The position numbers were made by a program, and so were the translations under genes. The notes beneath the pieces were generated by a model. That model made no database searches. It saw only the letters and a program-made list of their open reading frames with translations, and was not told where the DNA came from. 64,000 nt of DNA, taken from contig JAIPJM010000010.1 in assembly GCA_021734255.1 (NCBI GenBank), positions 1 to 64,000 on the forward strand, written 5' to 3'. This DNA comes from Fidelibacterota bacterium. GTDB lineage: Bacteria; Fidelibacterota; UBA8477; JABMPR01. Positions 1-26,300 of this stretch are shown here, piece after piece. Within the stretch, counting starts at the first letter, position 1. Each line of letters begins with the position of its first letter.

Positions 1-64
1 GCGCTTCCAATGCTACCTTTGCTTTGAATTTAGGGCTGTGGTTACGTCTTTTTCTCTTTGTCAT
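1..64 (-). CDS. IS3-family transposase OrfA, N-terminal fragment (cut by window edge)
   Basis: The minus strand has an ATG at 64-62 preceded by AGAAGGAGG, a strong Shine-Dalgarno. The visible 21 residues begin MTKRKRRNHSPKFKAKVALE. The basic start followed by the SPKFKAKVALEA-type motif is the classic beginning of the helix-turn-helix OrfA of IS3/IS911-type elements, which binds the terminal repeats and is fused by frameshifting to the DDE-catalytic OrfB. Only this start is in the window. Identification rests on the conserved N-terminal motif and on the matching terminal repeat just upstream. Confidence 0.8.
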   Translation of the reverse strand, partial: MTKRKRRNHSPKFKAKVALEA

Positions 65-134
65 GGTGTCCTCCTTCTGGACTCATATTAATCCGGAGTT
101 CACACCTAAGCCACTGTCCAGTTTTTGGGGTCCA
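1..134 (-). mobile_element. Left end of an IS3-family insertion sequence (partial)
   Basis: On the minus strand the element appears to begin at position 134 with TGGACCCCAAAAACTGGACA, the usual form of an IS3-family terminal inverted repeat of the IS2/IS51-like type (5'-TG start, C-rich block, then an A-rich stretch and TGGACA). About 70 bases inside it is a strong ribosome binding site and the start of a typical orfA. The rest lies outside the window. The usher reading frame enters the element without a stop, so the insertion looks to have happened inside that gene. The exact terminus and any target duplication cannot be confirmed without the other end. Confidence 0.75.
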
Positions 135-1688
135 CCTCTTATCCTCATCAGGTAGTTGTGACCAGGAGAAGGTGCTCCTACCCGTAAAGTTCATGCCCTT
201 GTAACTAAAAGGATAAAAATAGCTGGACGTGAGTTGGTGGATATAGCCCCGGACATTATATAGACTTTGCGCATTATAGTAGGTATAGTCACTGTTGAAT
301 GATGACCCATTGGCAGCCGTTCGTCTGATCGTCAACTTGTAGTATTTGCTTAGCACGGCATCCAGTCCCACAAGAACACCACTGGCTAGTCGGGAGGAAA
401 GTTTGCTGTAGAATACCGGTTGATCCTGATTATTCCCTTCAACATACTCAACACCGATGCCACCGGTTAGCCAGTTTTTCAGACCCATTGAAACAACACC
501 AGAAAAAACTTCGTGTTGCTCGTTCCAGGGCAAACTTGAGGAAGTCAGACGACCGGCCCCGACCTGGTATCTCACCTCTTTAACCGGTAAAAAATTAAAG
601 GGGATCTGTATTCTTCGATCAAGCTCAATAACCCGCCCCTGTCTGGCAAATATCCTGATCTTAAAGTCGGATTGTCCATAACTCAGGGGGATCATAAACC
701 GGTAATAGCCCACATCATCTGATTTGATCACATCCACCAGACGATTGTCCTGATAGAGTTCAATTTCAGCTTCAGGTTCTGTCAGTCCATCCAGAACATA
801 GGAATCATAGGTCCGTTTTGGGACCAGGGGTTCATTGGTCGCCTGAACACCCAGGTAGGTCTGATTCAATAGCCCGATGGTGCTCTGTTGACCGACAGTA
901 GCTGATGAGAACCAGGGCCGGGATTCATCGACATAGCGCCACCTAAAATTTGAGGCAGACAGACGTCCTGTGGTCCGGTTAACAGTAGAGAGGATACTTC
1001 CTTGCACATCACCAAATGCCAATTCCCCGCCTAAACCAATGTTCATGTTTACGTACCGGTTATTCTCAGAAATGGCAGTGTAAGCGGAATAATCGATGAA
1101 TGCGCCATCGGCACGACTGGGTTGTCTCCCCAGGAGCAGATCATAATTTTCATCCGAGACAACGGGATTATATCTCTGTCTGAGCTCCTCTTTATGGCGT
1201 CTGGTGTAGCGGGCGATGATGGGCAGATCCTGGGGTGCTTCTAATCTGATCGTCAGACGTGAAATATCAACATCCACGCCCAGTCCAAAAATTTCCCTGA
1301 ATAATTTTGGACTGATATAGTAGTCGATCTCCTTCACACGGAAGTCATGTGCGTTCAGTGTCCAGACCTGGTCACCAAGCTCTGCATAAAACCGAGAGAA
1401 ATCGATGTGGTAACGATTATCCTCTTTTAAGTAGTTCCCCTCAATTGAGAAACTGCTGGGATCCAGTTCATAATTAATGGCGAAGATATCGAAGAGTTCT
1501 GTCAGGGGTAGGAAGAATGTTTCACCATCATAGTAGGCGACGATGATCTCATCGATGATTCCATTGTAGCGGAGGGAGAGATACACTTCCTCTTCATACG
1601 TCTCAACCGTATCTTTTTGGAACCAGAAACCTCCAAAAAGCTGACTAGAGAGAAGAAAAAATAGAAGGAAATACTTACTTGTTGACAC
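42..1688 (-). CDS. Fimbrial usher-like outer membrane protein, C-terminally truncated by IS insertion
   Basis: The protein has a signal peptide (residues 1 to about 19), an N-terminal domain, and a beta-rich middle. Residues about 290-360 hold a plug-like Ig fold of the type found in ushers and carboxypeptidase-regulatory domains (for example AEIELYQDNRLVD, then GYYRFMIPLSYG), followed by barrel strands. Ushers form the outer membrane pore that assembles chaperone-delivered pilins. It starts directly at the stop of the PapD-like chaperone gene (shared position 1688), as expected for a chaperone-usher pair. Genuine usher sequence ends around residue 518 (position about 135); the last 30 residues are read from IS3 DNA. 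Ushers are normally about 800 residues, so roughly the last third is missing here and the protein is probably non-functional as written. Confidence 0.7.
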   Translation of the reverse strand: MSTSKYFLLFFLLSSQLFGGFWFQKDTVETYEEEVYLSLRYNGIIDEIIVAYYDGETFFLPLTELFDIFAINYELDPSSFSIEGNYLKEDNRYHIDFSRFYAELGDQVWTLNAHDFRVKEIDYYISPKLFREIFGLGVDVDISRLTIRLEAPQDLPIIARYTRRHKEELRQRYNPVVSDENYDLLLGRQPSRADGAFIDYSAYTAISENNRYVNMNIGLGGELAFGDVQGSILSTVNRTTGRLSASNFRWRYVDESRPWFSSATVGQQSTIGLLNQTYLGVQATNEPLVPKRTYDSYVLDGLTEPEAEIELYQDNRLVDVIKSDDVGYYRFMIPLSYGQSDFKIRIFARQGRVIELDRRIQIPFNFLPVKEVRYQVGAGRLTSSSLPWNEQHEVFSGVVSMGLKNWLTGGIGVEYVEGNNQDQPVFYSKLSSRLASGVLVGLDAVLSKYYKLTIRRTAANGSSFNSDYTYYNAQSLYNVRGYIHQLTSSYFYPFSYKGMNFTGRSTFSWSQLPDEDKRWTPKTGQWLRCELRINMSPEGGHHDKEKKT

Positions 1689-2512
1689 TAAAGTTTAGTA
1701 AAGGAACCCTTTGCGGTCACCGTTTCAATAGGAATGATATCAGAATCAGGGACATCGGCTCGTCCACTAAAGAAACTGATCTCATAATCGTAACTACCCA
1801 TGGGGAGATCAGTGGCATCAAAATCGATCCGGTGCCACCCATCATTGAAGATAGATATATATATACGTTCATTCTTGACGATATCCCCCAGAACATCGTA
1901 CACTTTTACAGCCATGGTTCCCAGGAATGGTGAATTACCCAACTTCTCATAGCCCGCAATAATGCGTACGGATTCATCACTCACGACTGGTCGAACATCG
2001 GTGATCTCTATTCCGCAATCCAGTTCCCCGTGTTTATAGTAAACAGATGTGATCTGGTTGAACTGAAGGTTGATCTGGGCTGTAATTCCCCCGGGTTGTG
2101 TATCACCGATTGATGGGCTGATCGCACTGGACGTGGTGATCATGCGAGTCCAGTAAGTACCTGAGTCCAGGCCACGTGGTGCTTTTGCCGTAATACGTAT
2201 TGTCTGCCGTGCACCTGCTTCCAGGATAAAACTCTTGGGAAAGCCCCTGATCCACCCGGCAGCCGAATGCTCCTGGCCCGGAATGGTATCACCATATGTC
2301 ATGGTCATATTCCCATTTTCATCGGTGATCGGATATCCGAACTCCCACCGCAATTTCACTTCCTGGGCTGTGGCAGAGGTATTCATAATAAGCAGCGTCT
2401 CAAATCGACGTTTACTGTCAATAAACAAAGATGTCGGAGAAATGGTTACTTGTGCAAAAATGTTTGCAGTAAAAACCAAGATCAACAGGACTATAATAAG
2501 TTTCTTGTTCAT
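1688..2512 (-). CDS. PapD-like periplasmic pilus chaperone
   Basis: 274 residues with a clear signal peptide (MNKKLIIVLLILVFTANIFA, then Q). The start of the mature protein (TISPTSLFIDSKRRFETLL) and the region around residues 100-125 (AGARQTIRITAKAPRGLDSGTYW) match the two characteristic stretches of PapD-type chaperones: the N-terminal strand carrying the conserved phrase about resisting denaturation, and the strand leading to the basic cleft. Its expected job is to hold pilin subunits in the periplasm by donor-strand complementation and pass them to the usher encoded immediately downstream. It is somewhat longer than enterobacterial PapD (about 220). The pilins it serves are most likely the three DUF4402-type proteins upstream. 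The call is by motif and context. Confidence 0.75.
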   Translation of the reverse strand: MNKKLIIVLLILVFTANIFAQVTISPTSLFIDSKRRFETLLIMNTSATAQEVKLRWEFGYPITDENGNMTMTYGDTIPGQEHSAAGWIRGFPKSFILEAGARQTIRITAKAPRGLDSGTYWTRMITTSSAISPSIGDTQPGGITAQINLQFNQITSVYYKHGELDCGIEITDVRPVVSDESVRIIAGYEKLGNSPFLGTMAVKVYDVLGDIVKNERIYISIFNDGWHRIDFDATDLPMGSYDYEISFFSGRADVPDSDIIPIETVTAKGSFTKL

Positions 2513-2617
2513 CGAATTAGACTCACTCTCATATTGTTATCCAAACTTAATAGACAATGGCATAATATATTAATGAAAAAATGGCTTAAAACCATGGACT
2601 TAGTGAGAAACAGAGCC

Positions 2618-2647
2618 AAAAAAAAGACCGCGATATACGCGGTCTTT
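2618..2647 (-). terminator. Rho-independent terminator after the DUF4402 pilin gene
   Basis: On the minus strand, GACCGCG (2644-2638) pairs perfectly with CGCGGTC (2632-2626) around a 5-base loop and is followed by eight T residues (2625-2618). It lies 22 bases past the stop codon of the DUF4402 gene. It should insulate that gene from the chaperone-usher genes further downstream, or attenuate read-through into them. Confidence 0.85.
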
Positions 2648-2669
2648 CTAGAGTATTTAACCGAAGATG

Positions 2670-3188
2670 TTAGTTATAAACAACATTCACTTCGATATCG
2701 CCACCACCATTAGTCACATTGTCAGAGGCATATGTACCAGACGGCTGTGATGTCAATGTACCGAGGTTTCCACCCAACCAGAGCTTATGTGTGGATCCAC
2801 CCAAGGTTACGGGATTTGAAATAGCGATCGCAGAAGCCTGTGTCGTTGCATGTTGTTTCAGATCTGCGGTAAACGTCATTGTGTTCGTACCATCACCAAG
2901 CGTGGTCGTTGCCGACGTCAAGGTAATATTTACGCCTGCACCACTCTGACCTGTGATCGTAAATTCACCAACGGTTGGTGTATTTACATCAGTATGGCTT
3001 ACACCAGTTGGATCAATGATCGGTGTTGATGTAGCGGAGATATTTCCAAAATCAACATCTGAAACTTTGGCGATACTCAGTGCAGCCTGCACAACAGCAT
3101 CAACAACTGCTGTGGCTGATTCCTGTGCAAACGCACCGCTGGATAAGCCTAAAGTTAATACGATTGTTATGATTACCATTTTCTTCAT
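2670..3188 (-). CDS. DUF4402-domain pilin-like protein (probable major subunit)
   Basis: 172 residues using the ATG at 3188, which is preceded by GAGGGAAG and begins a clean signal peptide (MKKMVIITIVLTLGLSSGA, then FA-Q). A longer in-frame start at 3227 would put 13 polar residues before it and is unlikely. The mature protein has the DUF4402 pattern: DVDFGNISA near the start, GEFTITGQSGAGVNITLTSA in the middle, and a C-terminal strand ending VNVVYN. DUF4402 proteins are commonly encoded beside PapD-like chaperones and ushers and are thought to be fibre subunits. It has its own upstream spacer and a strong terminator, so it is an independent, probably highly expressed unit. That is why I suspect it is the major subunit; this is inference. 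Confidence 0.75.
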   Translation of the reverse strand: MKKMVIITIVLTLGLSSGAFAQESATAVVDAVVQAALSIAKVSDVDFGNISATSTPIIDPTGVSHTDVNTPTVGEFTITGQSGAGVNITLTSATTTLGDGTNTMTFTADLKQHATTQASAIAISNPVTLGGSTHKLWLGGNLGTLTSQPSGTYASDNVTNGGGDIEVNVVYN

Positions 3189-3486
3189 TTTACTTCCCTC
3201 ATTCCCTTTGTTATTCCAATTTTCCAATTTTCTTCTCTCTCTTCACTTCCAATATAGAATTGGATTCGGTTTTCTCAATAAACTATCAATCAATAGTACA
3301 AATGGCATGCCAAAGACTAAAACAACTTATAATATATTGATAATATTGAGATTATATCCATCTAGCTTCATCTATTTTCAGTCCGAACAGTCATAATAAT
3401 ATTACAACATCCTTAATAAACGACAACTAATTGTGACAAAAAGGGTCCAACCAGCGAAGCGAAACGATTTTTCTACCATCCTTGAA

Positions 3487-4035
3487 TTAATCATAGATGA
3501 CTTCTAGATCGACATCTGCCGAGTAGGTACCGGCGTCAATATTGCCAACATTCAAGGTTCCATAGATATACAGATAAGCAGTCGCTTCTGCTGGCGTGTG
3601 ATGTGAACTCGGAGGCGTGGGCGGTGCACCGGCCGGTCCAGATTCACGTTCTCGCATCTGGAAACGGGCGGTGCCACCCGTGCTGGTCACAGCCTGGTTG
3701 ATGTCATTGACGCCCTTATTCGCATACGCAAAATTCAGGGTGAATGGGATCACATCTGAGGAAGCACCCGTATGGATCAGGTTGGCCGGTGCGGTAAGCG
3801 TCACGATAACATCCATTTCTTCATTCCCGGTGATGGCGAACACCCCCATGCCAGCATCCCCAAGATTGATCTCAGTCAATCCCGTACCAGAAATGATGGT
3901 CCCAAAATCCATGTCTTGATCCTTGGTCGCATTCAGGCTGCTGGAGACGTGCACACTGAAGGTGATTACCTGGGCAAGCGTGCTATTCACCAGAATTGCG
4001 AGTGCAATGATCAAATATGTCAAGTGCTTAAGCAT
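3487..4035 (-). CDS. DUF4402-type pilin-like protein
   Basis: 182 residues with a signal peptide (to about residue 21, STLA-Q). The pattern matches the neighbouring DUF4402 proteins: DMDFGTIISGTG near residue 42, GMGVFAITGNEEMDVIVTL in the middle, and a C-terminal AGTYSADVDLEVIYD strand. Its ATG (4035-4033) shares a base with the stop of the preceding gene (4035), so the two are translationally coupled in the adhesin operon. The likely role is a minor subunit or adaptor of the same surface fibre. Annotation is by pattern; no closer function can be given. Confidence 0.7.
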   Translation of the reverse strand: MLKHLTYLIIALAILVNSTLAQVITFSVHVSSSLNATKDQDMDFGTIISGTGLTEINLGDAGMGVFAITGNEEMDVIVTLTAPANLIHTGASSDVIPFTLNFAYANKGVNDINQAVTSTGGTARFQMRERESGPAGAPPTPPSSHHTPAEATAYLYIYGTLNVGNIDAGTYSADVDLEVIYD

Positions 4036-4532
4036 CAGTTATAGTCTACCTCAATTACAAAATCTCCATCATAAGAACCAGGCACCAGGTCCTTTAAACT
4101 GAATTCACACCCAATCCATAAATAATACGTACCAATACTGCTCAAGTTGACCGTCATTGGATTGGTGGTGAATATCTCTGAGGCACTTTGATTGTTCTCG
4201 CCATTCCCACTGATGTTGTAATACACATTCAATGGAATATCCGATGCAAAATTTGTCATCTCAACATGTGCTGTGAAGGCGATCTGAGCACTGGCATTTT
4301 TCTGCCCTGATATGAGGATCAACCCTGCTCCCTGGTCACTTCTGGGATCCAGTCTGAGCATGTCCTCCGTGGGAATGATCATGCCAACATCGATATTGGA
4401 CAAGGTGACCATTTCGATATAGTCCTCAACAGTCGCGGTAATGCGAGCAGTTACGGTAGGTGAATCCGACTGAGCAAGACCCAGTGTCGAAAATAAAACT
4501 AAAAGTAATAATATGTTGACTGTTCTAATCAT
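4035..4532 (-). CDS. DUF4402-type pilin-like protein
   Basis: 165 residues with a signal peptide (to about residue 20, LGLA-Q). The mature part follows the DUF4402 layout: VTLSNIDVGMIIPTED where the family has its VDFG-type motif, GAGLILISGQKNASAQIAF in the middle, and a C-terminal GSYDGDFVIEVDYN strand. It is more divergent at the first motif than its two neighbours. The start codon overlaps the stop of the giant adhesin gene (4-base ATGA overlap), which strongly suggests co-translation with the adhesin. A tip or anchor role linking adhesin and fibre is possible but is only inference. Confidence 0.65.
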   Translation of the reverse strand: MIRTVNILLLLVLFSTLGLAQSDSPTVTARITATVEDYIEMVTLSNIDVGMIIPTEDMLRLDPRSDQGAGLILISGQKNASAQIAFTAHVEMTNFASDIPLNVYYNISGNGENNQSASEIFTTNPMTVNLSSIGTYYLWIGCEFSLKDLVPGSYDGDFVIEVDYN

Positions 4533-7500
4533 CGTAAAAGAATCATCTTCCTGGTAAAACTTTTGTTACCAATCTGCAAACGACAAAAATACAATCCACT
4601 ACTCTGCTCTGCCCCAGACCAGTGAACCGAATACTTCCCTGCCGGATAGGTCTCATTTTCAACCACGTGTTCGATCTCCCTGCCAAGCATATCATATATT
4701 ACAAGATCCACTGCTCCCTCCACAGGCAGGTAAAATGGAATGGTGGTCCCATTATTGAAAGGATTGGGGAAATTTTGGTCAAGTCCAAAGGTTCTCGGTA
4801 TTTCCGGAAATGCATTACCTGGATCGATACGCAGGAGAAAGCGTGGGGATTCTGTTCCTGACTTCTTTAAAATGTTAAATGCCTGGGTATCAAGTAGTTG
4901 TCTGGCAGGACGAAGGCTATTCAAGGGTCTAGCCAGTGATCCATCCAGATCAAATTCATAGTAGGAGTCAGCCAAAAGATCGATCTGATCGCCTGTTTCC
5001 TGATCGATGAGGTAAACAGACCATTCCTCGTGAAGGGCATCTATTCTTGGCCAGCTAAGCCTGAATGTACCGCTTAAAGGCGTGGTTTCCGAATACCCGC
5101 CAACATAGACTGGCAACTCGATAGGTAACCCAAATCGATAGGGCTGGTTCTGAATGGCGAGCAAATGATCATCAATACTTTCTGTATACAGCTCCAGATA
5201 GGTTTCTGTCGGCGGTACCAGATAGTGGGCGTCAAGGCGATCTTTACGCATGGACCCATCCTCTGTGAACTGGATGTGTGTCGTCGCTCCCAGGGTGTCA
5301 GACTCTAAGAGCAACATGATCTGCGGCATAGCTGAGCTTGGCTTATAGAATGCCCCCCCCGTTGTCTTGGCCGTTTTGGGTACCTTGAGGATCGGGCTTG
5401 TAGTATTGGCTTTCACCCAGAATCCCTGGAAGGGCATGATCAGTCCATTCCCCAATGATCCAGTGCTACCATTCCAGGTGAGATACGCACCTTCACCGGA
5501 ATTGGCGGTCACGTCCCAAACGTAGATCACATTATCCACATTCCTTTTTGTCCACCCCGCATGATCCCAATCAATGGTGGCACAGAAGGGGTTACCAATG
5601 AGATTCCAACCTGTGTCAGCTAACGCTGTGTAGGTGACCCCAAAATCAAATTCACCACCAGTTCCTTCTGCCTCAGTTCCAGCCGCATCAATCGTTACCG
5701 GGAGGGATTGAGAATAAGCTGCTTCACCAGGGATGGAGCCAAAGACGTAGACAAAAAGACCCCGGCCAGGTACGGTTACATCTGTTGTGGTATCCGGCTT
5801 TCTCCACCGCTGATTATCTGTTCCTGCATAGGTCTCATCATACCAGAGCACAGACGGACTGCCTGAGGCTGAATCCGAGCCCCCATATCCCTGAGAGAAA
5901 ATCTCATCAAACATATCACCGTAGGTCGAGGCCACCGGCGAGGCCAGCAGACGCCAGCCCGTCCCTCCGGTAATCTCACGTTGGGCTTGAATCGTTCCGG
6001 ATAAAACATTTTTTGTATTCGCCAGGAGCGATTTACCTGACTCCAGAATAAGACTACCGCTCTTTAATGTGAGTGTATCCGTGATGGTGATATTATCAGC
6101 GACTTCCACACCAGTGGAATTATCTATTGTCACATTGGTGAAGGTCAGTGGACTGGTTATATATTGACGTGAGCTACCGTCGAATTCCACATATTTAATA
6201 TTACTGGAGGCAATACCCATATTACCCCCAATGCGCAACGTATCGGTTCCACTACCATTCAGGTCACCCCCACCCAAAATATCACCATTTACGTCAAATA
6301 CGATCCCACCAGAGAGGCTTAGATCCGCTCCAGATTCGATGGTGAGTGAAGAGATCTCCACGCTATCCGTAGAGATTATGGGGTACCGGGTTCCGTCTGC
6401 AGGCGTGCCAGGAATGAGAATAGCATCTGAACTAATGGGCACTGTCCCTGCATCCCAGTTTACCAGGGTATCCCAGCGTGTTGTATAGGGCAGCGCCCCA
6501 GGATCACTCTCCCAGATATTGGTATAGGCGTTAAAATTTACTGTGGCGTTGTCTGTCATGGCATTCCCATTCAAAACACCAGTGATGACCGCCTGGACGA
6601 TGGAGGATGAGGACTGTAGTTCCTGTGAATAGGTCCCATCGCCATTATCAACAACTGCCCCCAAGAGGGTTCCGGCTGTGCTGATCAAATTCACCGTCTC
6701 ACCGCCTGTTGCATGGTTATTTCCTCCGGCATCCTTGACCTGCACTGTGATCGTTGACGTGCTGACAGCATCATTCTCAAGAACTGTCGGATTTGCAGTG
6801 ATCGTAGAAGTCTCCTCACTGGCAGGTCCTGAAACAATGGAAAAGGTATTACTGACCCCTGCAATTTGACCTGAGGTATCGGTAGCGGTTATTGTGAAAC
6901 TGCCAATGGTATTGATCGAAACGGTATCCGGCGACAAGACACCTTTTGTAAAAATTGGAGTGTCACCACCACCCGTACTCAACGTACCTGAAGAAGTCAG
7001 AGTTACCGTACTGAGAAAATTCGTATCGACTGAAGCTGTGCCATCCACCGCTGAGATCTTGATATTGAAGGGTACACCAGCTGTTTGAGTGAGGATATTC
7101 CCCCCACTGACCTTCTCCACCAAAAATGTTGTATATTGTCCAGGATTTGTAATGGTGATCGTATCACTGAATGCCGTATCCAATCCGGTACTGGTTGCCG
7201 CCAAAACAAAGGTACCGGAGGTATCAATGGCCAGATCAGTGAAAGCAACCTGTCCGTACGCATCGGTAACAAGACTTGAATCTCCCTCAAGACCTGCAGC
7301 GGCCGGAATCTCATATACCAGGTTCATATTAATGGTTGTCCCAGATGCTTCGATGGTGTTCCCATTGGCATCTTGGATCTCTGCTGTGATCGTGGGCGTC
7401 AGTGCTTCGTGTTTTGTGCCACTTGTCGGCGGATCTTGATTGTATATCACTGCTGAGGGGCTTCCAGCAATCATGGTGAGAGTCCCATAATTGGTAAGAT

Positions 7501-10500
7501 CCCCACCACCTGTTGTTCCAATATTCGTAATATTGCCCGCATTGGGTATGATCCCTGTTGTTGGCCGAACGCGTAGCCCGCTGACAATGATCTCCCCCGG
7601 GGCACTTGATGCGTTGGAAGCTGCTGTGATAGTAAATGTTACGCTTGTATCATCACGGGTTGTATAAGTGCAGTTGAGTGTTGTTGAGGCTCCATATGCA
7701 GGCTGCACGGTTATAACCGGATCTGCACCGCCGATATCCCACTCAAATCCATCAGGAACTCGTAGTACACCTGTTCCACTGACAGCCAACTGCCCGGCAT
7801 AATCCTCTGTTACGCGGGGGCCCGTTAGCGTTGTCCAGTTTGTTGTACCTGCATCATCAGCGGAGATCGCTTCACCACCTGTCGCAGGTTCAAGTAGACG
7901 CACACTGATGGCATATTTATCGGAAATATAGTCTTCGACCTGAATACGTTCAGCGTCCAACAAGTGGCGACCATAAAGGATGACCTCAGTGATCATCCCA
8001 TCCCAGGTCCCCTCTGGACCTTCACCCAGCATTACGGTTAAAGCGTTGGAAATGGTGCCTGTTGGAGGAGATCCGGCATAGGACACACTATTGAGTACAC
8101 CATCAATGTATATACGCCAGGTATCACCGCTTTTCCAGTCCAGACAAACAACCTGAGGATCAACCGATTGCATGCTATGGTGACTTTCCATCTCGTTGGC
8201 AGCCACATCGCTGAGGACGGCAGTTTTGATCACATCCAGCTCAGTGCTGTTATCACCTACGGCATCATAGCGCAGGGAGAAATATCGATCGCCGGGATTG
8301 TTGGTCTCCACCATCCAGAATCCATTGTCGGTGGACGTCACATCCGATTCCAGGACGAAAAAGATCGTAAATTCCGTCAGTCCGTTGATGTAAGTGGAGC
8401 CATCGGCATCTTCCATATCCGTATTGGCAACCACCCATTCCAGAGAGCTTTCATTATTGAGACTGGTGACACTGGATCTGAACACTGGTTTTTTCACACC
8501 AGCCAGGAAGTCCCGCCCATTCCCGCTCTGGTCTTTCCACAATTCAACATCATCGCCATCTATGGCTTCAATGGTTCCAGCTACATCAGTGTAGACACCC
8601 GAAGTGGAATTCAACCACAGGTCTAGGTTTGAGATGGTGGCAGGAATTCCTGAGGCGATCAGGCGATAGACCGACGTACTGGCAACCTGACCATCATCGT
8701 AGGCAATGAACGTTAGTGTCCTTGTGGGTGTATGGGAATTCACTGCCACATTTTCATAGATCACCGAGCGTATAGCGCTTTGGTACACGCTTAGTGATTT
8801 CAAACCGGCAATAACCAGCTTACCAACCCCTCTGTACCAGGTTCCGCCGAGCCCATAAATGGCAGAATATCCAAGACTGTCCTCATTGACAAAATAGTTG
8901 CTGGTTATTTGTATGGTGAGGCTATCTAGCTTTGTATCATCACCGTCTAAGACAAGGATCGAGTCAGTGATGGATATGGCACCATCCCCTTCGTTGTACA
9001 CGATGACCGATTCTTCCAAATCAGCTAAAACAGGCGCATCATTCACTGCAGTGACAGATAGGTCGCGAGTCTGAGTATTACTGTGAGCCTCTCCATCACT
9101 CACTTTGAATTCGATGGTTCGAACAGCCATATCATCTGGGTCAGGATTCAAGTTGTCGTAGGTCACTGATCGCAATGCGCTCTGGTATTCAGCAACCGAG
9201 GCACTGCCGACCAGGAGGAGTTCACCAGAAACACTACTCCAGGTTGAGGTGATCCCATAAACTGAAGTGAAATCCAGAAAATCCTCACCATTCACATAAT
9301 TATTTGAGATAGTCACCCAGGCCGTATCAAGATAATAGTCATCTGCATCACTGATAGCCAGGGTGCTGGTGATAATGGTTTCTGGGTCGCCATCCGTATA
9401 GGCAATGGTCGTTCCTTCAATACTGCCCAATACCGGTGGACTATTGGTGGCACCAATCGTGATGTCTCGTGTCACTATGTTACTATAACCATCACCATCA
9501 CTCACGGAAAAGCTTACCGTTCGGGTCAATGTATCGGGTGAACTATTTATATTCTGGTATTTCACCTCTTGCAAAGCCGAGGAGTAATCCGCTAAACTGG
9601 CATTCCCTGTAAGCTTCATCAATCCCAGACCACCATAGTAAGTCCCGGTTATCCCGTAGTTGTTCGCAAAGATCAGCGTATCCTCAGAACGGAGGAAATT
9701 TGCAGTAAGCTCAATTTTTGCACTGTCCAAATTGAACTCGCTGTAGTCGTGACAGGTCAAGCTGTTTGTCATTATAGTTGCTGGGTCGTCTGCCTGATAC
9801 GAAAGGGCGATGGTCTCAATATCTGTCAGAGTAGGCAGCTCATTGGTCGTGCCTACCGTGAGAAAAGTTCCAGGCGAGGACATATTGGCATATTCTGTTG
9901 CGATCCAATCAGGTGTTACCGCGACACTGCAGATCCTGACCTCGTCTATGAATCCATTCCAGGAGCTGGTGGGACCATCTTTGGAGCCTTTACCGATAAG
10001 CAGTTTTGTATTCTTGCTGGTCAGACCTAATTTGCTGTTCGCCCAGCTATAATTATCATATCCGCCGTTGATATAAAATCTTGTTGTATCGCTTTCAACA
10101 TGCGTCAGAACCAGGTACTGCCAGGTCGTATCCGCTGAAGCATTGCTGGATTCATGTCTCAGTTTGTTGTTGTTACCTGTATTCATGGAGGTACGGTAAA
10201 CATTGGTTCCGCCCCCCCTTTCTCCAGCAGCATCCTGGCGGATCATGAGGGCAGCATCGGCTCCATCCGGATCATCGCCATAGATCAAACCCATGTCAGA
10301 ATTAAGCACATTGGCTCTAGCCCAGAGCGAAACCGTTAAGCTATCCAGGTCATTCAGATAATTTCCTGCATTTACTTCCTCCAGATCGTCACCATTGCCA
10401 TCAAATTCACGACAGGCCCCGATCATACCGGAATCACTGGTTGCCGTGTTGCGATTCAGCAAGGTATTCGAGCCCGAGGAGGCATCTGTCAGATCTTCAA

Positions 10501-10981
10501 GGTGCCACACACCCAGGTAATTATCATTCCAGGTGGTGGTATCTGATTGGTCAGCATAGACCCCCGTCTTCCCGTAGTACAGATAGATCGTGCTATCCAC
10601 AGCAGGTGAAAGGGTGGGCATGCGTACCCAAAATAGGATCTCACCAGTAGTTGAGCTGTAATCCTCTAACTCAAAATCTAACAATGTGGTACCGTCGGAT
10701 TGCGTGAACAGGATGTCGTATCCTGAGGGGTTCTCTACACCACCTCCATTTGAGGTAGAGCGTAGCATGGTGTCTGTCAGGCTAACCATGACAGGAAAAT
10801 TCAGATGAGCAGAGGCACCGCTGATCTGGGAACTTTCCAGGGTGATCAATTTGCGATATTCATAGCCGACCGGCTGCGCTGACACGTTGACCGCAATGGT
10901 GCAAAAAATGATCAGCGCAGCTATCGCTCTGCGATTTTTGATCACATCTCTTTTTGCATCAACCTGCATTTCTATCCCCAT
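4529..10981 (-). CDS. Giant multidomain surface adhesin with T9SS C-terminal sorting domain
   Basis: 2150 residues. In order: signal segment (about 18-36), DUF2341 domain (about 40-130, ending in the YLYYGKTG motif), LamG/concanavalin-like domain (about 150-375), three tandem repeats of about 130 residues (about 385-775, each with a DxDD-type acidic stretch and a YQSALRSVxYxN-type end, cadherin-like), a second LamG-like domain (about 785-990), several Ig/Big-like domains including a Big_1-type one near 1400-1500, a beta-helical stretch, and a C-terminal Por-type T9SS sorting domain (FGLDQNFPNPFNNGTTIPF through GLYFCRLQIGNKSF). T9SS substrates cross the outer membrane and are attached to the surface. 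Domain content suggests carbohydrate or surface binding. It begins an operon with the two pilin-like genes. Confidence 0.8.
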   Translation of the reverse strand: MGIEMQVDAKRDVIKNRRAIAALIIFCTIAVNVSAQPVGYEYRKLITLESSQISGASAHLNFPVMVSLTDTMLRSTSNGGGVENPSGYDILFTQSDGTTLLDFELEDYSSTTGEILFWVRMPTLSPAVDSTIYLYYGKTGVYADQSDTTTWNDNYLGVWHLEDLTDASSGSNTLLNRNTATSDSGMIGACREFDGNGDDLEEVNAGNYLNDLDSLTVSLWARANVLNSDMGLIYGDDPDGADAALMIRQDAAGERGGGTNVYRTSMNTGNNNKLRHESSNASADTTWQYLVLTHVESDTTRFYINGGYDNYSWANSKLGLTSKNTKLLIGKGSKDGPTSSWNGFIDEVRICSVAVTPDWIATEYANMSSPGTFLTVGTTNELPTLTDIETIALSYQADDPATIMTNSLTCHDYSEFNLDSAKIELTANFLRSEDTLIFANNYGITGTYYGGLGLMKLTGNASLADYSSALQEVKYQNINSSPDTLTRTVSFSVSDGDGYSNIVTRDITIGATNSPPVLGSIEGTTIAYTDGDPETIITSTLAISDADDYYLDTAWVTISNNYVNGEDFLDFTSVYGITSTWSSVSGELLLVGSASVAEYQSALRSVTYDNLNPDPDDMAVRTIEFKVSDGEAHSNTQTRDLSVTAVNDAPVLADLEESVIVYNEGDGAISITDSILVLDGDDTKLDSLTIQITSNYFVNEDSLGYSAIYGLGGTWYRGVGKLVIAGLKSLSVYQSAIRSVIYENVAVNSHTPTRTLTFIAYDDGQVASTSVYRLIASGIPATISNLDLWLNSTSGVYTDVAGTIEAIDGDDVELWKDQSGNGRDFLAGVKKPVFRSSVTSLNNESSLEWVVANTDMEDADGSTYINGLTEFTIFFVLESDVTSTDNGFWMVETNNPGDRYFSLRYDAVGDNSTELDVIKTAVLSDVAANEMESHHSMQSVDPQVVCLDWKSGDTWRIYIDGVLNSVSYAGSPPTGTISNALTVMLGEGPEGTWDGMITEVILYGRHLLDAERIQVEDYISDKYAISVRLLEPATGGEAISADDAGTTNWTTLTGPRVTEDYAGQLAVSGTGVLRVPDGFEWDIGGADPVITVQPAYGASTTLNCTYTTRDDTSVTFTITAASNASSAPGEIIVSGLRVRPTTGIIPNAGNITNIGTTGGGDLTNYGTLTMIAGSPSAVIYNQDPPTSGTKHEALTPTITAEIQDANGNTIEASGTTINMNLVYEIPAAAGLEGDSSLVTDAYGQVAFTDLAIDTSGTFVLAATSTGLDTAFSDTITITNPGQYTTFLVEKVSGGNILTQTAGVPFNIKISAVDGTASVDTNFLSTVTLTSSGTLSTGGGDTPIFTKGVLSPDTVSINTIGSFTITATDTSGQIAGVSNTFSIVSGPASEETSTITANPTVLENDAVSTSTITVQVKDAGGNNHATGGETVNLISTAGTLLGAVVDNGDGTYSQELQSSSSIVQAVITGVLNGNAMTDNATVNFNAYTNIWESDPGALPYTTRWDTLVNWDAGTVPISSDAILIPGTPADGTRYPIISTDSVEISSLTIESGADLSLSGGIVFDVNGDILGGGDLNGSGTDTLRIGGNMGIASSNIKYVEFDGSSRQYITSPLTFTNVTIDNSTGVEVADNITITDTLTLKSGSLILESGKSLLANTKNVLSGTIQAQREITGGTGWRLLASPVASTYGDMFDEIFSQGYGGSDSASGSPSVLWYDETYAGTDNQRWRKPDTTTDVTVPGRGLFVYVFGSIPGEAAYSQSLPVTIDAAGTEAEGTGGEFDFGVTYTALADTGWNLIGNPFCATIDWDHAGWTKRNVDNVIYVWDVTANSGEGAYLTWNGSTGSLGNGLIMPFQGFWVKANTTSPILKVPKTAKTTGGAFYKPSSAMPQIMLLLESDTLGATTHIQFTEDGSMRKDRLDAHYLVPPTETYLELYTESIDDHLLAIQNQPYRFGLPIELPVYVGGYSETTPLSGTFRLSWPRIDALHEEWSVYLIDQETGDQIDLLADSYYEFDLDGSLARPLNSLRPARQLLDTQAFNILKKSGTESPRFLLRIDPGNAFPEIPRTFGLDQNFPNPFNNGTTIPFYLPVEGAVDLVIYDMLGREIEHVVENETYPAGKYSVHWSGAEQSSGLYFCRLQIGNKSFTRKMILLR

Positions 10982-11919: not shown

Positions 11920-12849
11920 TCAGTAGAGTTCTTCCCAACGGAGGATCTGCTTCGGCCAGTCATAACTTTCCAGCGTGCTGAACCCCTTCGGCCAGATCGA
12001 ATAATATTCGGGGTATTCATCATCCAGAAAATCCACATTGGCAATCACAGCTATATCCCTTCCAACAATCGGTCCGCTCAAAGCACTCCTGCCGATACGA
12101 ATACTCCCCATTGAGAAAATTGGTCCCAAAACACTATCGATTCTACTCAGGTTCGTTTCATTGATATATATCGTCGACGTAGAATCAGTGAACACAAGTG
12201 CAGGATATATCGTTGAATCGGTTCTGGCGGATTTAATGGTGTTACTCTGGCGAAATTCCACCTCCCCGCCACCACTGAATACCATGGTGGTGTTCTCCAC
12301 GTTAATATTTTGAAATTTATTTGCTGTACCAGTGAATACAATTATCCCTTCGATCAGATCACCCGCTTGAAATATTCTTGCATTGTCCGGATAGATTGTA
12401 TCTGCCATAGCGAACCAATAGGACTCATCAGCGATGGGTAAAAAATTAAAATTATCCCTGGGACGATTATCAGATTCATAGGAAGTTGAGTAACTATATG
12501 TTAGAATTTCATATTGGGAGGACATAACATGATTAAAGTGGTGATCCCGCTCCAGGTAGATCTTGAAACCCGCTGTGTCACCACCAGCGTGACCCACAGA
12601 CACAGTTAATGATACTTCAGCAGAGTCAAACGTGCTTACCAGATCACCCTGAGTATAGGTACCAAGAGAATCTGCACCAGAATTGATCTTCCAGAGCGCA
12701 ATATTGACAGCAGATTCAGCCTCGATCTTATGTTCAATGGTTCGAGCGGCCTCGTCTGTACCCAGGTTCACCAGGAATGCCAGGTTCAGGACACCGAGAC
12801 CGGTGATGCTGAAAACTACCGCTGTGATCATGATGGCTACGATATACAT
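11920..12849 (-). CDS. PilX-like minor pilin/prepilin-associated protein
   Basis: I chose the ATG at 12849 (309 residues), 4 bases after the stop of the preceding prepilin gene and with AGGA upstream. This puts the hydrophobic segment (MYIVAIMITAVVFSITGLGV) at the very N-terminus, as in PilX-type proteins. A TTG start at 12906 is less likely. After the membrane segment come an amphipathic helix (AARTIEHKIEAESAVNIALW) and a beta-rich domain. The C-terminal half has SGPIVGRDI and ends in SYDWPKQILRWEE. Both features recur in the 308-residue protein at 15698-16624, so the two are paralogues. It probably forms part of a type IV pilus or secretion pseudopilus with the two prepilins upstream. No canonical GFTLxE cleavage site is seen. 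Confidence 0.6.
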   Translation of the reverse strand: MYIVAIMITAVVFSITGLGVLNLAFLVNLGTDEAARTIEHKIEAESAVNIALWKINSGADSLGTYTQGDLVSTFDSAEVSLTVSVGHAGGDTAGFKIYLERDHHFNHVMSSQYEILTYSYSTSYESDNRPRDNFNFLPIADESYWFAMADTIYPDNARIFQAGDLIEGIIVFTGTANKFQNINVENTTMVFSGGGEVEFRQSNTIKSARTDSTIYPALVFTDSTSTIYINETNLSRIDSVLGPIFSMGSIRIGRSALSGPIVGRDIAVIANVDFLDDEYPEYYSIWPKGFSTLESYDWPKQILRWEELY

Positions 12850-12853
12850 AGCA

Positions 12854-13354
12854 TTAATTCCTGATACTGACAGTCCACGTAAGATCAAGGGTGTCAGTAC
12901 TTTCAACTAATTGAATATCTACATCCAGCATGTCAGTATTATTTCCGGCATAGGATGTGAATAGGATCGAAGCTACATCGGAGTCAATTGGATAGTGTTG
13001 CAGACTGTCTATCTCCCAGACCAATTGAGATGAGATCACCTCCACGTGGTCCACCGTATTATCAATTCGCATTGCTCTCATTACAGTGCCAGAGCTTGAA
13101 GGTGTCCCAGCATTCTCAGCCGTCGAATCAGCATATATTTTCAGTGAGTCGCTGATTTGTAGGGTCAGGTTTGATCGTATATATTGGTCAATGATCAGTG
13201 CATCTTGACTGAGCTGCGACCTTATGACCGTATTATTATACATTGTCCGGGTATATAATAGCATGGAACCATATCCGATCGCTACAATTCCAGCAATAAC
13301 AAGTGCGATCATTATCTCTGGTAAGGTGGTGCCTGTTGAGCCCTTCCTTTTCAT
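12854..13354 (-). CDS. Type IV prepilin-like protein
   Basis: 166 residues from the ATG at 13354, which overlaps the upstream stop (TGATG). The N-terminus MKRKGSTGTTLPEIMIALVI is a prepilin leader: basic leader, Gly before the cleavage point, then a TLPEIMIALVIAGIVAIGYG hydrophobic helix with Glu at mature position 5. This is the substrate signature of prepilin peptidase PilD. The rest is a short beta domain without recognisable subclass. It is translationally coupled to its neighbours, so the three genes (13818 to 11920) form one minor-pilin operon. A PilW/GspJ-like role is possible, but the length is short for PilW. Confidence 0.75.
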   Translation of the reverse strand: MKRKGSTGTTLPEIMIALVIAGIVAIGYGSMLLYTRTMYNNTVIRSQLSQDALIIDQYIRSNLTLQISDSLKIYADSTAENAGTPSSSGTVMRAMRIDNTVDHVEVISSQLVWEIDSLQHYPIDSDVASILFTSYAGNNTDMLDVDIQLVESTDTLDLTWTVSIRN

Positions 13355-13818
13355 CAGAAGTTCCAACTCGTATCATCGGATAGATAGGCTGTCACGCTAT
13401 CACTTTTGTTATTTGTAGTGAACCATGAAATGTACATCTGGATCTTATAGTAGTCGGGTTGAGTCCCATCTGCCGGGTAATATCCATCTGTCGAGTCATC
13501 AATGGCCGATACTATGGTTGTTCGATAGGCTTGAATATTGTTAATGATCAGCGAAGTATTTGTTTCCACCAAACTATCCTGAAGTGAGCTTGTGCCAAAA
13601 TCGATCGCCTGCTCCATCCTGGAGGCCATGTTCATCCAGGCCAATTGTTTCCTGATACCCCTGTCTATATCCCAGCGTGAATACACCATATATTGGGCAG
13701 TTCCCAGTGCAATTATTGCCAATAGTGTGATGGCAAAGATGATCTCGATCAAGGTAAATCCACCCCGCTTTTTTAAACGAGCCGAACGGTCCGGTCTTTT
13801 TCCAGTTTCTCTGGCCAT
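13354..13818 (-). CDS. Type IV prepilin-like protein with N-methylation motif
   Basis: 154 residues. The leader is long and basic (residues 1-19), followed by the canonical GGFTLIEIIFAITLLAIIAL motif: cleavage after the second Gly, Phe as the mature N-terminus, and Glu5. Such proteins are inserted in the inner membrane, cut and N-methylated by PilD, and assembled into pili or type II secretion pseudopili. The remaining globular part is about 110 residues, so it is a minor pilin-type subunit. It is first in a three-gene operon that continues with another prepilin and the PilX-like protein. No core pilus machinery genes (pilB, pilC, pilQ) are in this window. Confidence 0.8.
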   Translation of the reverse strand: MARETGKRPDRSARLKKRGGFTLIEIIFAITLLAIIALGTAQYMVYSRWDIDRGIRKQLAWMNMASRMEQAIDFGTSSLQDSLVETNTSLIINNIQAYRTTIVSAIDDSTDGYYPADGTQPDYYKIQMYISWFTTNNKSDSVTAYLSDDTSWNF

Positions 13819-15697: not shown

Positions 15698-16624
15698 TTA
15701 TCCGCTACGTTTCTTTTGCCATTTGGTGGTGTTCCAACGATCAATGCTCTTATCCCAGTCATATGAATCCTCTTCACCAAATCCTGAATTCCATGTGAAC
15801 TGAGCCTCTTCCTGGATCTTGATAAATTCAATATCTTCATCAAGACTGATAACATTGCCGATGACGGGACCAGTCATTGTTGCAGATTCAAGATTGATCT
15901 GACCGGTTGTGTAGATCGATCCAGTTATGACGTTCGAGGCATAAACAGTAAAATCAGTACTCAGGTTGTCCACTACAAGTGCCGGGAGTGCATCAATGCT
16001 ATCTAAGGGTGTGGGCGCAGAGATCGTGGTATTGATGATCGTAATGTCATTACCCATGAAGTATAAGGTTGAGTTGGTAAATGTGCGGCTATCAATTTCC
16101 AGATTGTTACCGATAAATACGTGGATTCCCTCTTTGGCCAGATCTGATTCTTGCCAGGAGTTCTGATTACCATGATGGATAGCGACTGCATTATTAAAAA
16201 AGTATGTCGCATCAATTTCAGGCATGGTTTTAAATTTATGGTTCTTAGTACCATTTTCCTGGCCGTATGCATGACCATTGGTTTGAAGATCATTGGGAGT
16301 GGAAATGTGCTGCTCAAAAGGATTAAGCGCATCCATGGTTATTTCAGTTGCAATCTGATAACCCATGGTGTCGACAGCAACAGTCAGGGTTTGTGTAACA
16401 GCATCCCAGCGGGTAATTACAGTAGAGGATGAATCGGTCACAAGTGAATCAGCGCCATTATTTAATTTCCATAAGGCTTCGTTAAGGGTAGACTCAAATG
16501 CAAACTGCGCTTTAATATTTTTTGAAGTTTCCAGGGAGATGGTTCTGGAGCTGTAGGAGATGTCCAGAACGGCGACACCGGTAAAGGAGAGAACGAGGAA
16601 GATGGTGATCACGCTTACTAACAT
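15698..16624 (-). CDS. PilX-like protein, paralogue of the one at 11920-12849
   Basis: 308 residues from the ATG at 16624 (AAAAGGG upstream); the longer frame opens with TTG at 16657. N-terminus: MLVSVITIFLVLSFTGVAVL, then an amphipathic helix with the same NEALWKLNNGADSL phrase found as NIALWKINSGADSL in the paralogue. The C-terminal half is beta-rich with TGPVIGNVI and ends in DSYDWDKSIDRWN, again matching the paralogue. Nearly equal lengths (308 and 309) support the start choice for both. It is a single-gene unit with a probable promoter upstream. Pilus or pseudopilus involvement is inferred from the paralogue's operon. Confidence 0.6.
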   Translation of the reverse strand: MLVSVITIFLVLSFTGVAVLDISYSSRTISLETSKNIKAQFAFESTLNEALWKLNNGADSLVTDSSSTVITRWDAVTQTLTVAVDTMGYQIATEITMDALNPFEQHISTPNDLQTNGHAYGQENGTKNHKFKTMPEIDATYFFNNAVAIHHGNQNSWQESDLAKEGIHVFIGNNLEIDSRTFTNSTLYFMGNDITIINTTISAPTPLDSIDALPALVVDNLSTDFTVYASNVITGSIYTTGQINLESATMTGPVIGNVISLDEDIEFIKIQEEAQFTWNSGFGEEDSYDWDKSIDRWNTTKWQKKRSG

Positions 16625-16729
16625 ATACAACCCTTTTAGTTGTATCCCTACTTCCAATTAACCCTGCCAACATTAGTTCAAACGATGTGCCACAATTGTT
16701 TATTTCTATAATGTACTGTTAATATTTTA

Positions 16730-16902: not shown

Positions 16903-18156
16903 CTACTTGAGTAGGAGGAGTTTTAATGCATCCTTTGGTCTGGAATTATGGAGCAAGCGACAGATATACATCCCACTAGGTAATGTCTGCCCAGCAGCAT
17001 CTAATGCCTGCCAGGATAGCTGGTACAGACCAGGTTCAGCATAGTCCTGGCGGAAAGATGTTACCCTCTCCCCCCGTAGATTGTAGACGTTCATCTCCAG
17101 TGTGCCAGGGATTTGCAGATCAATTTGAATTTTTGTCGATCGATTGAAGGGGTTGGGATAGCTACCAATGAGTCGAGCCTCTCGTGGAGTTGTTCCAACC
17201 TTGAACCCGTCGATACTCACCGGGTGGCCATATATATACTCGTAGGATCCATTTAGGAGTGCTGCTGCCGTGGTATCAAAGGCTGATGCCAGCATACTGT
17301 TATTATCTTCGTAAGTCAGTGCCATCACATCCTCATGATGATTCAACCACCACCAGGATTCCGGATAGCGTAAAGGCGTACCCGCTGTCCAGGTAACGCT
17401 GTAATACCAGGGTTCGATGCCATGGGGATAGAAAGAGCGGACCTCTCCTATATACCGTTTCTCAAAATCAAAATACAAAGGGGAGGTACCAGCTTGGTCA
17501 TGACAAACGAAAAATCGTGTCCCACTTATTGAAGAGTGCATGTTCAGAGCCACATCTACCGGCGTTTCAGAATTCATGAGTTCCACAAATCTGTTGCGGA
17601 GCACCTGGACCTCAGGTTCGAGGACGGTTGAATACCAGTTACTTTCGATGTCTACATAATTTGCATTCTGTCTCGGGTATTCCAGTTCAACCCCGTCCGG
17701 GTTGTACATGGGTATGATGTGGAAAATCAGATTATCCCGTAGGTGCCGACCCAAGCTAGACTGGGACAGCAGGATTTTGATCATCTCCCTGGTCACCCAC
17801 CAGGCCTGCACTTCGTTGGGGTGGGTTCGGGCGTGAACATACACAACCGGTTTAATCCCAGTTGTTGTAGAGTCCGGTCCGGTGATGGTCATCTCCCAGA
17901 GTGTTCTGCCCTGGACACTGGTGCCCAGGGAATCCAGCCTGACATAGGGGCTCTGAGCCCAACGTTCCAGATCTATTAGAAGACTATCATATCCATAACC
18001 CCAGTGGTCGCCCAGAACCTGGAGAGAAAGTCTGGAGAGGCTATGATCCAGGATCCCGCACTTATCGAATTCATCATCGTAATCATCCGCCATCAAGGAA
18101 ACAGGTCCCATCAACACGAATAGAATGACTCTATATATTTTATATTGAATGATCAC
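16903..18156 (-). CDS. Secreted M14 zinc carboxypeptidase with T9SS sorting domain
   Basis: 417 residues. After the signal peptide (to about residue 23) comes an M14 catalytic domain: VYVHARTHPNEVQAWW supplies the zinc-binding His and Glu (HxxE), then NPDGVELEYPRQNANYVD (substrate-carboxylate region), LNMHSS (third zinc ligand), and ALTYEDNNS (catalytic Glu). Residues about 335-417 are a T9SS type A sorting domain (GSYPNPFNRSTKIQI to GMYICRLLH). It probably digests peptides at or beyond the cell surface. The start is a GTG at 18156 without an obvious ribosome binding site, so the exact N-terminus is uncertain. It is transcribed divergently from the DUF2878 operon. Confidence 0.85.
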   Translation of the reverse strand: MIIQYKIYRVILFVLMGPVSLMADDYDDEFDKCGILDHSLSRLSLQVLGDHWGYGYDSLLIDLERWAQSPYVRLDSLGTSVQGRTLWEMTITGPDSTTTGIKPVVYVHARTHPNEVQAWWVTREMIKILLSQSSLGRHLRDNLIFHIIPMYNPDGVELEYPRQNANYVDIESNWYSTVLEPEVQVLRNRFVELMNSETPVDVALNMHSSISGTRFFVCHDQAGTSPLYFDFEKRYIGEVRSFYPHGIEPWYYSVTWTAGTPLRYPESWWWLNHHEDVMALTYEDNNSMLASAFDTTAAALLNGSYEYIYGHPVSIDGFKVGTTPREARLIGSYPNPFNRSTKIQIDLQIPGTLEMNVYNLRGERVTSFRQDYAEPGLYQLSWQALDAAGQTLPSGMYICRLLHNSRPKDALKLLLLK

Positions 18157-23324: not shown

Positions 23325-26300
23325 TCACTTCCACTTCGAAAGAGTTTGTTTGAGTCCAATTACAGATTCTGGCGCATCATCACCAAGTTCATCTAAGATT
23401 GAGTTGACTCGCTCTTTCAGATCTAATTTAGTTTCCTTAGGGATGGATTTAAGTATTTGGGGACAATCAGTTCCAACCAAACGACCAAAAAAGTCAAGTT
23501 CGGCAGGTTCCTGGCGCTCGAAAATATTCCTGCCCATTCTGCGAACGATGTCCTCGGCTTTTTCTTTGTAGATTTCACAATTGAATAAATCTCTTGGCAG
23601 TTCATCAACAACTCGCATCAACGCTCCATCTGATTCGATTAAATAATCACGAATGTCCTTGACCAACAACTTCTTCTGATTTCCTTCTAAGCTGTTATAC
23701 AGCAAGTCAATTTCATCCTTATCAATATTGATTTGACGGATATCATGTTGCTCGATCCGGTCCATGATTGCATCTCTCATTGGTGCCCGGAGTACAGTGT
23801 TCACTCCCCTTTCTATGAGAATTGAGATTAAATGAAGCTCTTGGCTATCATCAGCAATAATTTCAAGCCATTCAGATTTCTCCAGTGTTGAAATATACCC
23901 CTTTATGAAGGCAAGGAACGGTTTGGAGGTAAACGCTCCCAGTTCTAATATTTCGAGATATAGAGGAATATCATCAGGATCAAATCCGTCTTCTATGATC
24001 CATTCTTCAAGGTCGCTGTCTTTAACTAAAGCGCCAATTAATCTGTTGTATACATCCTCATCGAGTAGGTCATTTAGATACTTATAGTGCACCATGAATA
24101 ATTCTGAAGTAAAGACACCTCCAGACCATTCATTCTCACAGAAGGCTGTTATAATCAGATTTCTACTTATTGTGTTAGCGTCAGAAAGAGCAGTTTTTAT
24201 TATTTCCTGTGCATAGCCCATACTTTCAGCCAAGTCTACAACACCTTGCAAAATTTCTTTATTATTCAGGGCAGTTGCATAGGTATTTCTTCCCGCAGGA
24301 GATTGCCCACGGTTTTGGCCTTGATTTGTACGTGGATCGAGTCGCATAACAAGCAGTAGAAGAGTTGTTATCTCATCTAATTTCTGCTCGTATGCGATCT
24401 GAATAAAATGATATACGTTTCCACCTTTTACCCATTCTATAAGTCGAGTATCGGTTGACCACTTAATGATACCCAGTCTAAAAAAATTATCAATGCAACC
24501 CATGTATGCTTCTACGACATTTGCGTCCATTTGTGACGTGTTTAATCGCTCGGCGAGATGGGCTTCAAATTGTGACCAGTCAAATTCGGTATTGTATTGG
24601 TAGAGACAATTGATGATTGTTGAGTAGTTAAGTTTCACCGTTTCAGATTTAATATCCTTGATCAGCGCTTCAACAATCTCATCATCTGAGGATGGGGGTT
24701 TAAGACAATCGGTGCAGAACGTACCTTCTGGCTCCTTCAATAAACTCATAATCTGCAAATAATCAGTTGCCGTCTTTCCCAGCACCAATTTGCTCCTAAA
24801 GTCTTCTCCCCGCTCCGCAATTAGTCGTGTTATTAGATTCTGAGTCCCCTGCACCCAAGTTTCTAAATTGTCTACTAAATTTCCATCATCATCAACAGTT
24901 ACATGTGAAAGTACCTGAATAAGGTTTTCGATGGCCAGTGTATTGTCTTTTGAAAGCAGTGTCTCGTATCCTATCAATCCTTTCTGCGATAGTATGGGAA
25001 AGGTATCTATTTGGGATAGTGCGATTTGAAGCTGGCTTTCCCATCTTCTAATGCGTGGTTCATAAATTGCTTCAACTGCCTGAAGTACGTAAGCAGCAAC
25101 TCCAATGATGTCTGGATCAGATTTTATCCACTCATTTAACATGTTTTCAAATACTTGATCAATCAGGCTATCCGTCCCTGGGAAGGCTGCGAGAGCTTCG
25201 AGATCAACTAAGGAACCAGATTGAATAGCTGATCTGATAGCCTCATAATTTAGAGCCTGAATTGCATTATCTGGCTTAATATTGAAATGCAAAGCAGCGA
25301 GACTATGAATGTATTTTTCACTAAGATACTGCACCTTATGCTGCTCAGGGATTTCGTTAATAAATGTCTTGATTGGACCTTCATGAAATAAAATATGATA
25401 CACTTGATCTTTAATGGGAATTTCCCTCTGCCACTGCGAAATTGATAGTCCCAATCGATTGATGAATTGAACAATCTTCCTGGGAGCTAAATCGTTATCA
25501 GATTTCTTGTCGTGATCATAAGCCCGTACAATGTCATATGCTTCTTCCTCCGAGAGTCCTGAGAATGCCAGTGATAATTTCTCTTTCATAAACTCGACCC
25601 AGCGAGAGAGAACCGGTTCTGGGATTGAGAAGACAATATCGAATGTTTTCTCAATGAACGAGTCAGCCAGATATTTATTCCTCTCCTCTAAATTCTTAAT
25701 CTTAACCTGCCTATCGTTGGCATTTGCTCTTTCCATTAAATAGTCTTCATTAGTTTGAAACTCCTGCCCCCACCATTTCCGAACACTTTGTTCTGCAAAT
25801 GGAACTACGAGCCAGACATATGGAATTGTTGATTTTCTATTTGAATCAAATTCTTGCGATATCATTGAGCGCATCGTCGCCCAAAGAAGCTTGGCTTCAT
25901 CTCTTTCTACTCGGTCCAGGTTATCAATTACCAACACAATTTTTGACTTCGTTTCTACATGTACTTGTTCCATCAGGAGTAGGAAGGCTTCTTCAAATTC
26001 GATTGAGGTTGGTTCTGGGGTTTGGAGGGTAACTGTATCCTCCACCTGGCTTTCTTCCATCAGATAGGGTCCGGTGTCCTTAAAACAACCTACTATCCCC
26101 TTCGTGATTGCTATTGCAAATGGTAAACTCATCAGGATCACTCCCAGCCATTCACCTGGTGTGAAACCTTGTTGATTCTGTCCAAGTATTCCATCGTAAG
26201 ATTTTGCGAAAAATGCGATGCCGACTGGTAGCAATAAAGTACTGAAGCTTAATACCCGACCCCATCCAGTGAGCACTGGTGTCCGCTTTGTCTTAGTTGT

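Follow-up and report, generated by a model that had tools for sequence, protein, structure and literature searches.

The described systems that come closest to the locus considered here, a six-gene cluster in a 64-kb window of DNA from an uncultured marine bacterium (Candidatus Neomarinimicrobiota), are the Mfa1 fimbria of Porphyromonas gingivalis and the CupB cluster of Pseudomonas aeruginosa. The tip protein of the former, a type V fimbria, is Mfa5, an accessory protein that carries a signal at the N-terminus and a domain of the type IX secretion system (T9SS) at the C-terminus, is exported by this system and, at the surface, joins subunits that are exported otherwise (PMC7835359, PMC5954841). 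In the latter, a chaperone-usher cluster, one gene encodes a large adhesin with the signal of another secretion pathway, the TpsA-like protein CupB5, the secretion of which requires the POTRA-bearing usher CupB3 (PMC3031594). The present locus belongs to neither type. Compared by features, the Mfa1 fimbria consists of lipoprotein-derived type V subunits that are processed by gingipains, apparently without a chaperone or usher, and the separately transcribed Mfa5 contains a VWA domain, whereas the giant adhesin encoded here has no VWA domain among its Pfam matches and is accompanied by DUF4402 proteins, a chaperone and an usher. Unlike CupB5, this adhesin ends in a T9SS tail, no TPS domain is among its Pfam matches, and scans of the ushers revealed no POTRA domain in any of them. 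Being a giant passenger of many domains that ends in a T9SS signal, it resembles the T9SS adhesins of Bacteroidota, for example SprB, but differs from these in being found only together with pilus genes; Bacteroidota T9SS surface adhesins are not known to occur in chaperone-usher loci. A literature search yielded no description of DUF4402 proteins or ushers in Neomarinimicrobiota, and none of T9SS combined with chaperone-usher pili.

The window, that is, the whole stretch analyzed, stands at the start of a contig of 85 kb in a metagenome-assembled genome, and the cluster is encoded on its minus strand, in the order adhesin (2150 amino acids), three small proteins denoted D1, D2 and D3, a 274-amino acid protein and a 548-amino acid reading frame, the latter two being the predicted chaperone and usher. 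All relatives identified belong to Candidatus Neomarinimicrobiota, except that a single scan of genome contigs gave, besides this phylum, one other metagenome-assembled genome. The adhesin gene overlaps D1 by ATGA, as the original prediction stated, and one-base overlaps link D1 to D2 and the chaperone to the usher (TAGTG). The most economical reading is that these genes specify a single surface apparatus, the parts of which cross the outer membrane by two different export routes, a proposition that we consider evenly poised between right and wrong.

The adhesin (4529..10981), an adhesin-like giant surface protein with orthologues in 18 genomes, consists of a signal peptide, a DUF2341 domain, a LamG domain, cadherin-like repeats, a second LamG domain (the two matching Laminin_G_3 in Pfam), two Invasin_D3 stretches, a conserved stem (residues ~1480-2050) and a T9SS type A C-terminal sorting domain (Por_Secre_tail, E 1.4e-7, residues 2071-2147, positions 4541..4771). 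The last ~90 residues match ~55 unrelated open reading frames (ORFs) of the same genome, and the remaining ~2050 residues match none, so that this region behaves as a sorting tail; the profile of the Por_Secre_tail family detects 69 copies in the genome, which also encodes SprA (735 bits) and PorU (674 bits). The tail is thus interchangeable among unrelated passengers in a T9SS-bearing genome, as is characteristic of T9SS type A cargo, and is intact in all orthologues, including the adhesins of distant families. The T9SS sorting domain originally predicted at the end of the adhesin is accordingly present, and the assignment of the protein as putative T9SS cargo is solid. That the adhesin co-occurs with T9SS carries no information, given that SprA is close to ubiquitous across the phylum, being encoded in 94 of the 94 good genomes. 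The CupB precedent of a large foreign-type adhesin exported by the usher of its own chaperone-usher cluster (PMC3031594) suggests that the adhesin could instead leave the cell through the usher, the T9SS tail being vestigial or otherwise used. This route appears quite improbable given the ushers without a detectable POTRA domain, the invariably intact tail that is shared with so many unrelated proteins, and the presence of both SprA and PorU.

The three small proteins are D1 (165 amino acids, 4035..4532), D2 (182 amino acids, 3487..4035) and D3 (172 amino acids from the ATG at 3188, 2670..3188). D2 and D3 match the DUF4402 family above the curated cut-off (30.9 and 38.3 bits, respectively; E 2.6e-9 for D3), the match of D1 (17.9 bits) falls under it, and in profile comparisons both D1 (E 1.5e-15) and D2 (E 4.6e-7) match D3. 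The AlphaFold model of D3 (predicted local distance difference test score 84) is a beta-sandwich from residue 38 onward, with residues 21-37 loose and outside the domain, and the 21 best Protein Data Bank (PDB) matches of this model in a Foldseek search are all chaperone-usher subunits, with Caf1 first and CsuA/B and CfaB among the nearest. A penultimate tyrosine and a glycine at position -14 are classical hallmarks of chaperone-usher subunits. The tyrosine is invariant in D1, D2 and D3, and the glycine in D1 and D2, and in all three proteins, the signal peptide is followed by an alternating hydrophobic stretch, as expected of a donor strand. By sequence features and the predicted fold, D1-D3 are well-supported candidates for pilins assembled via the chaperone-usher pathway. 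Unlike the archaic and alternative pili (Csu, CFA/I) and Caf1, to which the predicted fold of D3 is closest, these putative pilins belong to DUF4402, with sequence similarity to the subunits of those systems below detection, and come without a two-domain tip adhesin, a T9SS protein being the first in the cluster.

The 274-amino acid protein (1688..2512) is a putative periplasmic chaperone. In Foldseek searches, its AlphaFold model (score 78) shows the two-immunoglobulin-domain architecture and matches CfaA, CsuC, EcpB, FimC and PapD with E-values of 1e-8 to 1e-5, CfaA, CsuC and EcpB being the nearest, and dozens of chaperones of chaperone-usher systems are among the best PDB matches. No match to PapD was obtained for this protein by sequence, and searches of the chaperone and usher profiles against PDB sequences gave nothing useful. 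The usher gene (135..1688) begins with a GTG that overlaps the chaperone stop codon and encodes the first ~517 of ~866 residues. Among its orthologues, one (L037) exceeds the cut-off of the outer-membrane usher family (PF00577, 39.5 bits against 27.1), and another (L036) matches this family weakly. The PapD-like chaperone and usher that were predicted to follow the pilins are therefore found in the expected order, with the qualification that the chaperone is PapD-like by predicted fold alone and that the usher is truncated here by an insertion sequence (IS). As a separate observation, the usher of family f6 (L089, 3356-6736) carries a C-terminal SPOR domain, possibly a peptidoglycan anchor.

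The same gene order is found well beyond the window. Among 245 genomes of the phylum Neomarinimicrobiota, the usher profile detects 18 of the 19 genomes of the genus (the one missed is only 63% complete) as well as 5 genomes from three additional families; a DUF4402 search of the class finds matches in 15 genomes of the genus, 14 of them over the family cut-off. The order adhesin-D1-D2-D3-chaperone-usher holds in every locus as far as the contig reaches, in 14 genomes of the genus and four from three other families (f6, f11 and f18); in three genomes of the genus (G006, G016 and G019), contig ends leave the order unreadable. The adhesin gene and D1 overlap or lie almost end to end, and the ATGA is retained in most loci of the genus and in f11. 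A profile of the adhesin stem scores >800 bits in 19 of the 245 genomes, and D1 adjoins the adhesin in 18 of these; the remaining genome, G018, has its adhesin locus truncated at a contig end and its pilus genes on a different contig. In the other 226 genomes, the stem profile search did not find the full adhesin. Relatives in which the adhesin stands away from the pilins, which would have undermined the original prediction, were accordingly not encountered in this sample, and wherever the contig allows (21 loci in 18 genomes), the two are adjacent. That this adjacency is due to chance, or is residual synteny without function, might be argued from agreement within the genus, which by itself proves little given that genomes of one genus share much of their gene order anyway. 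However, in f6, f11 and f18, where the encoded proteins are 36-59% identical, the flanks do not match the flanks in the genus apart from isolated weak matches, so that it is the six-gene block itself that is kept; moreover, the order persists although modules have been swapped between lineages. Chance adjacency is thus already largely refuted, with hardly any probability left to it.

Several irregularities were noticed among these loci. In f18, an ORF of 561-577 amino acids is located between D2 and D3 (L090, 3138-4871; L120, 9587-11272), and the one in L090 encodes a sensor-kinase/response regulator/AraC hybrid. The loci L027 and L028, from genomes G012 and G011, respectively, give identical match figures, which might reflect cross-contamination or a near-identical strain; G011 has a second copy of the adhesin on contig C25, and in G015, the adhesin frame (L030, 5142-11624) is split in two by a frameshift, a stop or an assembly error.

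If the products of the cluster do form a single apparatus, the chaperone would hold the three DUF4402 pilins in the periplasm, and the usher would polymerize them into a fiber by donor-strand exchange. The adhesin would cross the outer membrane separately, through the SprA pore of the T9SS, with PorU cutting or anchoring its tail, and, once at the surface, would most likely join the tip or base of the pilus or stay anchored beside it as a binding head that may engage a ligand; translational coupling to D1 could set the amount of adhesin. Should the parts join in this manner, the pilus would be built from two outer-membrane export systems, chaperone-usher fibers could bear T9SS-delivered adhesins, and both systems would be extended to the uncultured phylum Neomarinimicrobiota. 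The original prediction singled out the T9SS adhesin as the unusual part of the locus, a view that has to be tempered by the precedent of Mfa5, a T9SS protein in a fimbria (PMC7835359, PMC5954841).

Several findings, on the identity of the chaperone and usher, the adhesin stem, the transcription units and the course of divergence, weigh against such a union. The model of the chaperone matches WxLIP proteins with E-values equal to those for the chaperones, and hhalign comparisons of the usher with Escherichia coli FimD and of the chaperone with E. coli FimC were negative, so that both assignments derive from fold, Pfam matches and genomic context. Conceivably, then, the DUF4402 proteins could be soluble or surface beta-sandwich partners of the adhesin, and the chaperone-like and usher-like proteins could serve in another export role; Pfam assigns no function to DUF4402, and a single usher orthologue exceeds the family cut-off. 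We find this very unlikely, however, considering the specific match of the predicted D3 fold to chaperone-usher subunits, the penultimate tyrosine and the N-terminal alternating hydrophobic stretch, and the adjoining chaperone and usher genes. With regard to the stem, weaker matches to part of it are found in ordinary T9SS proteins from families without a pilus locus. A dedicated pilus-binding role of the stem was considered and rejected on account of this occurrence in T9SS proteins without pilus genes.

The transcriptional layout does not correspond to the single operon that was originally envisaged. A strong hairpin with a T-run (2621..2649 in the window) is present between D3 and the chaperone gene in 18 of 18 loci, and in none of them did any of 20 shuffled sequences reach its score; the standard terminator scan misses this hairpin, probably because the T-run forms part of the stem. 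A promoter-like element, TGG...TTAATAT (TTATTAT in one locus), lies 30-65 nucleotides upstream of the chaperone start in all 15 loci of the genus that were tested (2567..2594 in the window). Since these two elements are located between the pilin genes and the chaperone-usher pair, the region is unlikely to be one simple operon and is probably divided into two or three units in all, the likely division being adhesin-D1-D2, D3 and chaperone-usher. D3 is probably the major pilin given its solitary gene with the terminator-like hairpin behind it.

The divergence of the genes within the genus reveals a mosaic. Pairwise divergences of D1, D2, D3, the chaperone and the usher correlate at 0.87-0.97, whereas the divergence of the adhesin head (the comparison rests on 12 adhesins) shows a correlation of about 0 with each of the pilus genes, and the adhesin alignment columns after ~1800 correlate better with the aldo-keto reductase gene located downstream (0.71-0.83) than with the usher (0.37-0.40). 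The adhesin of locus L038 is 75-87% identical to that of the window over the greater part of the head (one stretch has 64%) but 53% identical in the tail, and the ushers are 40% identical; for L032 and L027, the figures are ~55% over the head and 84-90% in some stretches close to the end; and the adhesin of L035 is 84% identical to that of L027, with ushers that are only 46% identical. In the adhesin alignment, this mosaic is apparent at columns ~1700-2000 (L038, L035 and L032), the head having moved from one lineage to another while the tail tracks the flanking gene. By all appearances in these alignments, lineages of the genus exchange the head of the adhesin, roughly its N-terminal 1700-1950 residues, as a cassette, and the end of the stem and the T9SS tail stay with the strain. 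The independent exchange of the head and the pilus block at a fixed place points to an exchangeable head and argues against tight co-evolution; co-divergence of the adhesin and the pilus genes, which was sought as a sign of contact, failed in this respect.

These observations lend weight to an alternative under which the adhesin constitutes one adhesion system and the chaperone-usher pilus another, independent one; the two would be co-expressed, being useful under like conditions, but would make no contact. Independent exchange of the head and the pilus block and the terminator and promoter-like break within the region are compatible with such separation, and the adhesin could be anchored by its own T9SS tail like other T9SS cargo. 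Conversely, separate systems would not readily account for the failure to find the full adhesin without pilus genes across the survey, for the overlap of the adhesin with D1, which is more than loose adjacency, or for an order that is kept across families when the flanks are not. Two separate systems are, in our estimate, a substantial possibility, although one that falls short of probable. Returning to the single apparatus, a more specific form of it is proposed only tentatively, in which the binding head of the pilus would be no tip subunit exported by the usher; instead, a giant protein exported on its own by T9SS would dock at the surface, for instance via an unused pilin donor strand, with an interface that tolerates head exchange. 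If the parts do join, the locus, with its head and pilus block exchanged independently, would constitute a natural experiment on adhesin swapping. Of the hybrid of T9SS adhesin and DUF4402 fiber put forward in the original prediction, the conserved order and the two well-supported export assignments stand, whereas the union of the two parts goes beyond these, with divergences uncorrelated and units split.

In the window, the usher frame runs into the terminal repeat (118-134; TGGACCCCAAAAACTGGACA) of an IS3-like element, the end of which occupies positions 1..134, with the start of OrfA (64-2) at the contig end. Usher residues 517-866 are encoded at the edge of a second contig, C49, which itself ends in an IS, and the two IS3-like ends (window positions 1-134 and the end of C49, L099) are inverted repeats with 5 mismatches in 20 positions. 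Relatives carry intact ushers of ~866 amino acids. Insertion of the IS3-like element disrupts both the usher gene and the assembly.

Upstream of the adhesin gene, at 11920-13818 and 15698-16657, the window contains two genes with N_methyl domains, similar to type IV/II pseudopilins, as well as genes for two proteins of 307 and 319 amino acids that appear PilX-like by eye. Similar pseudopilin and PilX-like genes precede the adhesin in many loci of the genus, and none was seen in the distant families. Farther along are a protein that resembles carboxypeptidases by eye and has a weak T9SS tail (16903-18156; 24.3 bits) and a 1115-amino acid P-loop nucleoside triphosphatase of the KAP-like type (23325-26672), with weak matches to the defense proteins PifA and QatA.

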